Shown: positions 1,821 through 14,361 of the stretch, in pieces
How the letters are laid out: every line of letters begins with the position of its first letter
Numbering within the stretch: position 1 is the first letter of the stretch
Origin: Candidatus Auribacterota bacterium
Lineage (GTDB): Bacteria; Auribacterota; JAFGBW01
DNA: 17,243 nt
Reading direction: 5' to 3'
Assembly: GCA_016932965.1 (NCBI GenBank)
Contig: JAFGBW010000197.1
Location: 1 to 17,243, forward strand
The notes under the pieces: generated by a model
Database searches by the model: none
What the model saw: the letters and a program-made list of their open reading frames with translations, nothing else
What the model was told of the DNA's origin: nothing
Made by a program: the position numbers and the translations under genes

Positions 1821-2369
1821 ATGAGAACTACTAAAGCTTTCACTTTAATTGAAATGTCTGCAGTCATTGTTATTTTATTGATTTTAATTGGAATTTCTTT
1901 ACCTCTTGTCAATAAAAGCGGATCCGCTCATGAAGCAAAATTGTCAGCCAATGCCATATACAGCATATTATCCTTGTGTGATTCTATGTCCAGAGCATCC
2001 GGAAAAGTTTATATGGTTGATTTGAATGTTAATTTCAGCTCGACAATAATCGATCCGGTTAAAAGTCCTGCGTCTGTCTATAGACCTAGATTCAATCTCA
2101 TCCAAATTTATTGTTCCACTTGGGATTCAAATTTAAATAAAGTAAACAATCAACAGGTAGGAGAATCATACGAAATTCCTTATACCTTAGCAGCGTTATA
2201 TAATATAAACAGCGGAGAAAATGATAAAATCTATTTCAAACCAGATGGTGAACCCTATTATGAGCCAGGCGGGGACCCGGAGAGGAGAATAGTCGTTTAT
2301 CCTGAAAAAAAACCCCAATTATACTATAAAATTGATTTAAGTACCATGAAGATAATAAGTTATAAATAA
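1821..2369 (+). CDS. Type IV pilin-like / minor pseudopilin protein (GspH/FimT-like)
   Basis: This 182-residue protein has a class III prepilin leader: a short basic stretch (MRTTKA), then FTLIE with the conserved Glu at position +5 and a hydrophobic helix of about 20 residues (about 12-31). The residue before the cleavage point is Ala rather than the usual Gly. The region after the helix, with small residues and an alpha-helix ending near residue 60 and then beta-rich sequence, fits the GspH/FimT minor pseudopilin class. It would be processed by a PilD-type peptidase and assembled in the inner membrane into a type II secretion or type IV pilus-like fibre. No other machinery genes are in the window. 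The next gene starts 6 bp after its stop, so they are probably cotranscribed. A weak TTGAAA/TAAAGT promoter-like pair (1786-1814) would give an almost leaderless mRNA. The exact subtype is uncertain. Confidence 0.8.
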   Translation: MRTTKAFTLIEMSAVIVILLILIGISLPLVNKSGSAHEAKLSANAIYSILSLCDSMSRASGKVYMVDLNVNFSSTIIDPVKSPASVYRPRFNLIQIYCSTWDSNLNKVNNQQVGESYEIPYTLAALYNINSGENDKIYFKPDGEPYYEPGGDPERRIVVYPEKKPQLYYKIDLSTMKIISYK

Positions 2370-2375
2370 TAACAA

Positions 2376-2954
2376 ATGAAATCTCATCATCAAATCAGAG
2401 CCTTTACATTAATAGAAATAGTTATTAGTTTAGGAATTTTAGCCCTAGGAATTTTAGCTTTATTTTCATTAATTCCAACAGGAATAGAACAAAATAAAAG
2501 AGGGCAGGAACAGGCAAAAGCAGTGCTTTTAGCACAATCAAAAATGGAAGAAATAGTATCTTATGCTGCCAGGGATTGGACTAATTTTTACGATAATATG
2601 ACAAATGGTTATACTCATGAGCCTCCTTTATCTGCTACGAATGTACCTCCTTTTTATATAGGTCCTAATACAGATTATGAAAAAGGGATTTGGGGATGGG
2701 TACAAGATGGAAAGGGAGGATGGATAGAAAATTTAGGTTATGAGTGGGAATGGCATTTTAATGATCCCACTTTTCCGGAATCCAAGTTGGCTCTTATTAC
2801 CTTAACTGTATCCTGGCCGCAAAAATTAAGTCAATTTACAGGATCAGTTCAAAATTACATTGATCAATTTAATAAAGATAATATATGCGTATATGTAACA
2901 CAGAGAAACATCCAATTTATTCGTTTAATAAGCTATGTTTCCAGTGGTCTCTAA
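2376..2954 (+). CDS. Type IV pilin-like protein (PilV/GspI-like minor pilin)
   Basis: This is a second prepilin-like protein of 192 residues. The leader MKSHHQIRA is followed by FTLIE and a long hydrophobic helix (about residues 10-32) rich in Leu, Gly and Ala. After it comes a helix with QAKAVLLAQSKMEEI (about 46-60), which matches the PilV/GspI style of minor pilin, where LA...ME is a recurrent pattern. The C-terminal part is rich in Trp and Gly and contains TLTVSWPQ, typical of the beta-sheet end of such proteins. As in its neighbour, the -1 residue is Ala. It is likely a minor component that works with the product of the preceding gene; both lack obvious Shine-Dalgarno sites. What the fibre does cannot be read from the sequence. 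Confidence 0.78.
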   Translation: MKSHHQIRAFTLIEIVISLGILALGILALFSLIPTGIEQNKRGQEQAKAVLLAQSKMEEIVSYAARDWTNFYDNMTNGYTHEPPLSATNVPPFYIGPNTDYEKGIWGWVQDGKGGWIENLGYEWEWHFNDPTFPESKLALITLTVSWPQKLSQFTGSVQNYIDQFNKDNICVYVTQRNIQFIRLISYVSSGL

Positions 2955-11952: not shown

Positions 11953-14361
11953 TCAAGCTGCGCCGGATTCAGGATGTTCAGATAATTGATCTCTCATTGT
12001 ATGACTGAGCTGCCGCATCAATAAAGTTTGTTTATGTGATCTGATCAATTCCATAACAGATGAATATTTTCTTGAAGAATTCAACTCAGGCGGAAAGGCA
12101 GCTAAAATTCTTTCTATGGATTTGAGTTCGGATAAATCATGGATAGCGATCAGTCTTTCAGGGAGATGATTCAAAAATTTTGAAGAAAAATTCTGATTGG
12201 TCTTGAAAAATTTGGATAATAAGTATTTATTCCCGCGAAAAACAGTATCCAGCGCAATAGCCGCTTCCGTGTATCCAACACCTTTCAATTCAGGATACAG
12301 TTCTTCAATTCCTTTATAATCCTGACCTGTAGGACCGACCAGATCCAGTAATACCTTTTCAAAATCCTGATCCATTCTATCCAGAATAGCTATGGGATCA
12401 ATTTCACCAACATCAAATAAGCTGCATCCCATACGCTTGGTATGTCCATCCATGGATTCAAACATCATAAAATTGGAAGGTTTTGGGTCATCAAGCCATT
12501 CTCCCTGCATAAAAGCCATGGTAAACAGGCGGGTGAAAACAGCGCATGCGGCCTTATGCCATCTGTCTTTTCTGATTTCCAGTTCTTCAGGTGTTTGACG
12601 GACAGGTTTTAAAAATTCGTCCAGTCTGGCAATTGTTTTAGTTGGAATTCCCCTCAGGTAATCATCAACTCTAACATCGGGAAAATACTCCTCACTCCAT
12701 ACAGGAAGATCATATAAGACTTCGATACCAAAAATACTGGTATTAGGATGACCGGACATATATTGATGCCGGTACATTTCCTGAACGAATCCCCCTTTAA
12801 CTGAGACAAGTTTGCTTCTTTTAAACTGGACTTCAACTGGTTTAAAGCCTTTGAAAATGATATGGGAAACATCACCATCATGGGCAATAATTTCAGCGAC
12901 TAAAGTGATTTTTGCTCCGCCTTCCCCTACAAAACGTAAGCGAATATGACGGATTTTTGAGACATCAAGGACTTTTCCTCCTTCCAACATCCATACACTT
13001 TTTCTTACAATATCTGTTTCCTGATCCAGTAATGTTTTGACGATTTGTTCGTATACGGTTCTAAAACCTGTTCTATATGATTCAAAAGAAACATGATCCT
13101 TGAATTCATATTTCTGATAAAATCTTTCAATGTCCTCATCTTTCCAGTCGTGACTGATTTTGCTTTGAAGCGATCGGGTATCGGATAAACCATGATACCG
13201 GCTGAGCCTTTCACCAAGTATCGTTTCCATTTTTTCTCCAAGAGATTCCGCAATATTTTTGATGTCTTTCAATCCATTTGGATGATAAGCCCAGCGGGAA
13301 ATCATGGAACGGATCCGGATATATTCCAAACTGGAGCCATATTGAACCTGTGAACAAAGAATTTGAAGAAACATTTTTATGATGCGTATTTCAGAGGGGC
13401 GGATCAAATCCACACTGAGATTTTCATGATTGTTTAAATACCGGCTGATATAATCAAGAACACTTATCGGCAGTTCAATATCAGAAGTCAGTAAAATCAA
13501 TTGTTCTATATGCTGTTCCGTAATTTGATCCTGATTTTCAGGATCAAGGAAAACGTTTAACACAGCCTGCATGACAGCAGGGGGGGTGAGACCTTTTGAA
13601 GTGGAAAAGGCTTTTTTCAGTGTGGAACGGACTTCATGCATGCTTCTGGGCTGATATTGTTTTTCATCTCTGCCAAGTCCTGCAAGCAGCCAGTCTTTGA
13701 AAGAAAGACTGGCTGGCTGAGAGTCAGATGTGAAGACAGCTACAGAGGAAATAAATCTTGAAGCAGCGGTTTCAGCATAAAAAGCCAGACGAGTTGCTTT
13801 TCGTGAAAAATATTTTTCCAGGGAAAGGTCTTCTGTTTCCAAAAAAATTTCAGGATAGATCTCCCGGATGATTTCAGATATTTCATTTTCCTTTCCATAA
13901 GGTTTCATCGCCGTGAATAAAAAGCATGCTCTGATGAAATCAAGGGATTGGAAATGATATAATTCCCTGGCCATTCCAATACAATGATCAGGAAGCAGCA
14001 TATCGGAAGGACTGGATTTTTGATTAAACCCATACAATTGATTAAATCCTGAAGATTTTAATGTGACCGCATCAACAACATACACATCTGCTTTGTCCAG
14101 GTCTTCAAAAGCCTGGCGAAGTTTCTCCGAATATGAGGCTTTGGAATATTTTTTAAGTATTTTTGCTTTAAACTGGCGATAACCCGGTATGACTTTTTGA
14201 ATTGAAGCAGGTGAATGATCTGCCATAAATCCGGCAGATGGTTTCTTTACAAATGAAATGGGGGCAAGCGAATTTTTTCCGGTCGAAAATTCACTTGGCT
14301 CAGCATGGATCATGAGAGACAAAAAGAGTGTCCAGATGAGATTTGAGACAATTGTTCTCAT
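11953..14361 (-). CDS. Exported protein of unknown function with a C-terminal kinase-like region
   Basis: I do not recognise this 802-residue protein as a whole. Residues 1-20 look like a type I signal peptide (MRT, hydrophobic core, IHA before EP), so it should leave the cytoplasm. Residues about 50-450 are helix-rich with no motif I know. From about 470 the kinase landmarks come in the right order: a glycine-rich turn VGEGGAK (478-484) between two strand-like segments; a lysine strand HIIFKGF (Lys504) where kinases have VAIK; VQEMYRH (Glu528) in a likely alpha-C helix; DPKPSNFMM (625-633), which fits the catalytic loop DxKPxN with Asp625 and Asn630; and LFDVGEI (Asp650) in place of DFG. His and Arg of HRD are replaced by Leu and Asp. 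The gene stands alone: folP converges on it and an ABC exporter lies upstream on the same strand. UbiB/ABC1-like or HipA-like folds are alternatives. Confidence 0.75.
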   Translation of the reverse strand: MRTIVSNLIWTLFLSLMIHAEPSEFSTGKNSLAPISFVKKPSAGFMADHSPASIQKVIPGYRQFKAKILKKYSKASYSEKLRQAFEDLDKADVYVVDAVTLKSSGFNQLYGFNQKSSPSDMLLPDHCIGMARELYHFQSLDFIRACFLFTAMKPYGKENEISEIIREIYPEIFLETEDLSLEKYFSRKATRLAFYAETAASRFISSVAVFTSDSQPASLSFKDWLLAGLGRDEKQYQPRSMHEVRSTLKKAFSTSKGLTPPAVMQAVLNVFLDPENQDQITEQHIEQLILLTSDIELPISVLDYISRYLNNHENLSVDLIRPSEIRIIKMFLQILCSQVQYGSSLEYIRIRSMISRWAYHPNGLKDIKNIAESLGEKMETILGERLSRYHGLSDTRSLQSKISHDWKDEDIERFYQKYEFKDHVSFESYRTGFRTVYEQIVKTLLDQETDIVRKSVWMLEGGKVLDVSKIRHIRLRFVGEGGAKITLVAEIIAHDGDVSHIIFKGFKPVEVQFKRSKLVSVKGGFVQEMYRHQYMSGHPNTSIFGIEVLYDLPVWSEEYFPDVRVDDYLRGIPTKTIARLDEFLKPVRQTPEELEIRKDRWHKAACAVFTRLFTMAFMQGEWLDDPKPSNFMMFESMDGHTKRMGCSLFDVGEIDPIAILDRMDQDFEKVLLDLVGPTGQDYKGIEELYPELKGVGYTEAAIALDTVFRGNKYLLSKFFKTNQNFSSKFLNHLPERLIAIHDLSELKSIERILAAFPPELNSSRKYSSVMELIRSHKQTLLMRQLSHTMRDQLSEHPESGAA

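Follow-up and report, generated by a model that had tools for sequence, protein, structure and literature searches.

The protein-kinase-like (PKL) effectors of Legionella include 13 new kinase or pseudokinase families recognized by profile methods (PMC9758233), as well as SidJ (PMC6858067). Here we describe P0001, an 802-residue protein encoded on the reverse strand (11953..14361) of a 17,243-nucleotide contig from a Candidatus Auribacterota bacterium (the window; contig C276 of genome G000), which resembles these effectors in that it appears to belong to a divergent family with both intact and degenerate members and in its proposed action in other cells, a likeness of description. In contrast, the Legionella PKL proteins are predicted or known effectors of a pathogen, whereas P0001 comes from an uncultured phylum and begins with a putative signal peptide and, behind it, a LAPx[S/T] motif.

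P0001 shares with the eukaryotic-like Ser/Thr kinases (PF00069) the order and spacing of the glycine-rich loop (G-loop), beta-3 lysine, alpha-C glutamate, catalytic Asp/Asn, and DxG. Unlike these kinases, it lacks HRD, has DVGE in place of DFG, lies below Pfam detection, is predicted to be exported, and carries a helical module with an RSExxWW signature in front of the core. Its DPKPSN resembles the DPHPGN of UbiB/ABC1 proteins (PF03109), but the alignment with that family is limited to the hinge and C-lobe, and the loop of P0001 is glycine-rich rather than alanine-rich. Giant open reading frames (ORFs) with few annotated domains are described in passages of two reports on Omnitrophota and related phyla (PMC10066038, PMC12057145). 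Most relatives of P0001 sit in ORFs of this kind, while P0001 itself is short and free-standing, and the passages covered in those reports make no mention of a P0001-type domain or of the LAP motif. The N-terminus invites comparison with the PEXEL, or host-targeting, motif of Plasmodium, a short sequence that follows a hydrophobic signal in hundreds of exported proteins (PMC10653839, PMC3567231). This is analogy alone, the motif being another one, the organism here a bacterium, and no protease or translocon being known.

Protein-kinase-like core of P0001

The core spans residues about 470-690 (12292..12954; this and all further features of P0001 lie on the reverse strand). Within it, the equivalent of the G-loop, VGEGGAK (478-484; 12910..12930), the beta-3 lysine equivalent K504 (12850..12852), the candidate alpha-C glutamate E528 (12778..12780; the least certain assignment of all), the catalytic-loop equivalent D625-PKPS-N630 (12472..12489), and the metal aspartate D650 of DVGE, equivalent to DFG (12412..12414), follow one another in PKL order. 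P0001 reads LDDPKPSN and FDVGE where Pkinase has HRD and DFG. An earlier note on this DNA, made from the letters and a list of translated ORFs, had placed the motifs at exactly these residues (V478-GEGGA-K484, K504, E528, D625-PKPS-N630, and D650-V-G). Its reading of a kinase-like core, divergent in that the His and Arg of HRD are missing, was borne out both by the LDDPKPSN catalytic loop and by comparing profiles, where the match to Pkinase was the stronger and that to ABC1/UbiB the weaker.

For this comparison, a profile of seven cores from the family was aligned by hhalign to 22 Pkinase, 11 APH, and 19 ABC1 domains from related genomes. Against Pkinase, it reached a Prob of 95.5 and a score of 63.2, the 142 aligned columns keeping register between the G-loop and DFG, with G-loop paired to G-loop, EE hinge to hinge, DPKPSN to DIKPxN, and DVG to DFG. 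In controls, 100 column shuffles scored 13.8 +/- 2.3 (maximum 20.3; z about 21) and the reversed profile scored 11.5, while Pkinase versus APH, a known same-fold pair, scored 66.1 on the same scale. The Prob against Pkinase stayed above 90 whichever of the seven members was removed. The profile also matched ABC1/UbiB with a score of 37.9 (shuffles 14.9 +/- 2.2; z about 10), placing DPKPSN on DPHPGN, and more weakly APH, with a score of 27.8. Because the core motifs recur in the same order in independent homologues, and because the profile lines up with genuine kinases in register at scores well beyond those of its shuffles, these motifs are not a product of chance. An alignment that is in register, exceeds its shuffles, and is robust to member removal, together with the ABC1 match, gives firm enough ground for asserting PKL membership, and we consider it very likely that P0001 belongs to this superfamily, the predicted fold resting on profiles and motifs. 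As judged from these profiles, the P0001 family is a divergent PKL family, previously undescribed and missed by current databases.

Comparison with individual known families gave no closer assignment. P0001 scores below the curated cut-off of Pkinase PF00069, has neither a Pfam match to UbiB/ABC1 PF03109 nor a KxGQ, and gives no match at E up to 1 to the Pfam models of Fam20, CotH, and HipA, with the DRH motif absent. Surfactant protein B, the best PDB row (E 5e-4), spans only residues 241-292 of the helical part and was dismissed as chance. Ordinary Pkinase domains also occur in the genome, with 24 matches on many contigs in 3.1 Mb, which makes for a large set of eukaryotic-like kinases.

Homologues and catalytic state of the family

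Searches for homologues covered 44 genomes of the phylum, to which G000 belongs. By direct search, a single strong match was found, in G005, covering residues 49-657 at 27% identity (E 4e-41) and forming part of a 6,192-residue ORF. A profile search of the phylum extended the family, with matches from E 4e-150 to 1e-17, to a two-part module in which the kinase-like core comes after a helical segment bearing RSExxWW. This module occurs in up to four copies inside a 9,720-residue ORF of G014, inside a 28,618-residue ORF of G007, and in ORFs of 1,390 and 1,410 residues in G013 and G006 that are orthologous at 34%, with weaker profile matches in G021 and G011. The same-phylum homologues thus lie mostly within giant ORFs (6,192 to 28,618 residues).

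In P0001, the helical module that precedes the core in the phylum homologues spans residues about 340-455 (12997..13344; signature RSxxxxW), and the region before it, residues about 49-340 (13344..14217), is mostly helical and common only to the giant protein of G005. The region that the earlier note described as some 430 unrecognized helical residues is not featureless, its C-terminal part being the conserved module. The possibility that the N-terminal region is a decayed HExxH peptidase like that of the G013 and G006 proteins was rejected (hhalign Prob 0.2). We propose P0001 as the founding, nearly stand-alone member of a family that appears to be defined by the helical RSExxWW module and the PKL core.

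Outside the phylum, weak matches were found to a 500-residue protein of G302 with SEGGFKRVYRI, LVKVVKK, FFDDPNNRN, and VIDLDNID and a weak ThiS-like tail (E 6.6e-5), and to acyl-CoA-ligase-like multidomain proteins in which the core is degenerate (G147 and G336). In the latter two (L026 and L027), a RAELxxW helical module precedes the degenerate PKL-like region, and a GNAT domain is also present in G147. A match in G319 was judged a spurious GC-rich frame, and two scans of genome contigs and one of viral contigs returned no relatives.

The giant ORFs themselves (L004 and L006 on G005:C61, 6,192 residues; L011-L012 on G014:C318, 9,720 residues; L013 and L178 on G007:C19, 28,618 residues) are packed with enzyme-like domains, including methyltransferase, RelA/SpoT, GT2-like, Pkinase, and HEAT. 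The G005 protein matches methyltransferase and RelA/SpoT, with phosphoribosyltransferase, HD, and cysteine dioxygenase below the cut-off. In the G007 protein, an ordinary Pkinase match is accompanied by HEAT repeats, and the protein appears to open with a cobalamin-binding or radical SAM-like region. The orthologous 1,390- and 1,410-residue exported proteins (L005:5941-10110 and L029:3837-8066, both reverse strand) combine an HExxH segment (HEFNH) with a kinase-like module without the beta-3 lysine.

Catalytic residues could be compared across nine modules. Five of them (P0001, G005, G014 copy C, G007, and G302) retain the beta-3 Lys together with the catalytic Asp, the Asn, and the DxG Asp, the two modules of G013 and G006 keep D/N/D with the Lys gone, and the remaining two, G014 copy B and G147, have degenerated. 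Intact and pseudokinase forms thus coexist in the family. Conservation of Lys504, Asp625, Asn630, and Asp650, which the earlier note had put forward as a check, accordingly holds for all four residues in the intact five, and fails for the lysine alone in two modules and more broadly in the degenerate pair. P0001 lies on the intact side of the family, and on the strength of these residues is probably catalytically active.

N-terminal signal, the LAPx[S/T] class, and the locus

Residues 1-20 of P0001 (MRTIVSNLIWTLFLSLMIHA; 14302..14361) resemble a signal peptide. As the earlier note had predicted, a hydrophobic N-terminal stretch is present, with a 15-residue mean Kyte-Doolittle hydropathy of 2.06 from residue 4, which by hydropathy alone is compatible with a signal peptide, and the G013, G006, and G014 homologues with intact N-termini have a signal-peptide-like start too. 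Behind this stretch lies LAPIS (residues 32-36; 14254..14268), within SLAPISF, and the same layout recurs in the G013 (LLAPSSF) and G006 (VLAPQSIF) homologues. We defined a class of proteins bearing LAPx[S/T] no more than 80 residues from the start, behind a hydrophobic N-terminus, and P0001 falls within it.

The motif was examined in 793,962 bases of G000 (about a quarter of the genome; 646 ORFs). Of 29 occurrences of LAPx[S/T], 25 fell in the first 80 residues, compared to an expected 20.5% (p 6e-14). In the first sample, 21 of 23 early occurrences stood behind a hydrophobic stretch, and the last 20 contigs, sampled after the pattern had been defined, added two early and two late occurrences, which is in the right direction and too few alone. 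In an unbiased tripeptide scan behind N-terminal hydrophobic stretches, LAP ranked first (25 early versus 12 late; 13-fold). The motif proteins are mutually unrelated, no pair being similar at E 1e-3, and their LAP codons vary, so that a paralogue family or a leader carried by mobile DNA was rejected as the origin of the motif; because the carriers are not paralogues and the codons are varied, selection acts on the LAP peptide. Extrapolated to the whole genome, the 25 proteins found in a quarter of it correspond to perhaps about 100. The motif was not seen in small samples of G001, G002, G005, G007, and G014, so that its presence across the phylum is not established. The literature, preprints and most subscription journals apart, yielded no description of LAPx[S/T] as an export motif, which is weak evidence of novelty.

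Carriers with recognizable domains comprise Radical_SAM (RlmN-like by eye, with its cluster motif CPQKCRYC intact), AAA with WD40, Amidohydro_2, Asp_Glu_race (both catalytic cysteines kept), and a P-loop protein (intact Walker A, GNSGSGKS). A PrmA-like methyltransferase carrier is below the cut-off, and approximately half of the carriers scanned have no recognizable domain. Two LAP occurrences in ordinary domains (Peripla_BP_2 and ATP-synt_C) are not class members; these were left out of the functional argument and kept in the position statistics. Ten random signal-peptide proteins without the motif were mainly envelope proteins (OEP, secretin, TonB receptor, HlyD, and pilin), along with DUF218 and the like. 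LAPx[S/T] thus goes with cytosol-type enzymes, and the contrast with the non-motif set is plain, though the samples are small. The cysteine content of motif proteins is 0.77%, like that of other exported proteins, compared to 1.52% in proteins without an N-terminal hydrophobic stretch.

Several loci stood out in the course of this survey. Six genes of the class, encoding 217 to 781 residues and including an amidohydrolase and a methyltransferase-like protein, lie within 15 kb at L111 (G000:C37, 979-15778), suggesting a cluster of exported proteins. The RlmN-like radical SAM protein, with an intact CxxxCxxC, and the P-loop protein with intact Walker A are encoded by adjoining genes (L080:5206-6309 and L080:2912-5182, both reverse strand). 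In G006, a signal peptide and LAP motif begin a 2,124-residue protein with about 13 HTH_3 domains and HEAT repeats (L153:262-6633, forward strand; G006:C5), that is, DNA-binding domains on an apparently exported protein.

The P0001 ORF is real and single copy in the genome (3.14 Mb, 92.6% complete), its earliest possible start lies three codons past the upstream stop, and its codon-position GC resembles that of neighboring genes. As identified by eye from their translations, the genes upstream, which share the strand of P0001 and lie 152 bases away in this one genome, encode an ABC permease and an ATPase and may form an operon with it, and a convergent folP lies downstream. No promoter-like site above chance was found in the 152-base gap. 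Elsewhere in the window (1821-2954, forward strand), two pseudopilin-like ORFs with FTLIE N-termini point to a type II or type IV pilus-like system. G000 also encodes a secretin whose N0 domain is of the GspD type, so that the outline of a type II-like route is present, with no link to P0001.

Proposed function and rival explanations

Based on the data presented above, we favor, with modest confidence, the interpretation that P0001 is an exported PKL phosphotransferase of a LAPx[S/T]-marked class, delivered outside the cell and possibly into another cell. Its signal peptide would be cleavable, and the LAPx[S/T] element behind it would mark the exported class. Sec export would be the first step, and a second step recognizing LAPx[S/T] would deliver it to another cell (host, prey, or partner), inside which ATP-dependent phosphotransfer would take place, with the G-loop and K504/E528 holding the nucleotide, D650 the metal, and D625/N630 acting in transfer. 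ATP is scarce outside cells, and for this reason the interior of another cell is the most likely working place; delivery into another cytosol is also favored because exported enzymes needing ATP, S-adenosylmethionine, or an iron-sulfur cluster make sense there. It is possible, and by analogy with PEXEL we tentatively suggest, that the signal peptide and LAPx[S/T] together form a bipartite targeting signal sending about 100 otherwise unrelated proteins (kinase, RlmN-like radical SAM, AAA-WD40, racemase, and others) into another cell's cytosol, P0001 being one such kinase. The earlier note suggested export, with a site of action beyond the cell or within a host. The case for export has since grown stronger, through a signal peptide with LAPx[S/T] that is found in the G013 and G006 homologues too. 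What the analysis shows is the gene, its motifs, the homology, the PKL relationship, and the motif enrichment, and everything from export onward, including what P0001 does as an enzyme, its substrate, how it is delivered, and to which cell, is what we infer.

Several observations weigh against this interpretation. P0001 and the family profile returned nothing credible from Pfam (up to E 1 for P0001), NCBIfam, or PDB sequences, the single P0001 sequence aligned to Pkinase by hhalign with a Prob of only 3.3, so that the case rests on the family, and AlphaFold without an alignment gave no usable model for either the full length or residues 440-740 (predicted local distance difference test scores of 43 and 37.5). 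Since some family members have lost catalytic residues, activity of P0001 is not assured. The ribosome site is weak at the first possible start, and a start at M17 would delete the signal. Moreover, no secretion machine, host, or prey was identified for P0001, and no ATP/ADP translocase was found in the phylum, in a search whose controls were silent too.

The existence of degenerate sister copies (G014 copy B and the acyl-CoA-ligase multidomain proteins of G147 and G336), the missing HRD of P0001, and the expectation that no ATP is available outside would all suit an exported pseudokinase or scaffold that, like the degenerate copies in the giant proteins, uses the PKL fold to bind partners outside the cell independently of ATP. 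One or more of the G-loop, K, E, D, N, and D are usually missing from pseudokinases, whereas P0001 keeps them together, and we regard this explanation as unlikely. These intact motifs behind a signal-like N-terminus, along with the low cysteine content, might also be expected of an extracellular or periplasmic kinase resembling CotH or Fam20, phosphorylating envelope or matrix proteins with ATP present outside or retained during assembly. However, P0001 matches none of the Pfam models of such families even at E up to 1, and the radical SAM, AAA, and racemase proteins that share its N-terminal signature need cytosolic cofactors, which leaves this the least probable explanation. The same cytosol-type enzymes, with their intact cofactor motifs, could instead mean that the N-terminal signature is a membrane anchor or internal compartment signal and that the kinase works, without export, in the producing cell; we consider this improbable, given that the N-termini look like ordinary signal sequences and that the cysteine content matches that of exported proteins.

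These results assign a predicted fold to one segment of giant proteins that, in little-known bacteria, have hardly been annotated. The short N-terminal motif lets a candidate secretome of cytosol-type enzymes be listed from sequence alone, and the effects of uncultured lineages on neighboring cells become a testable question.
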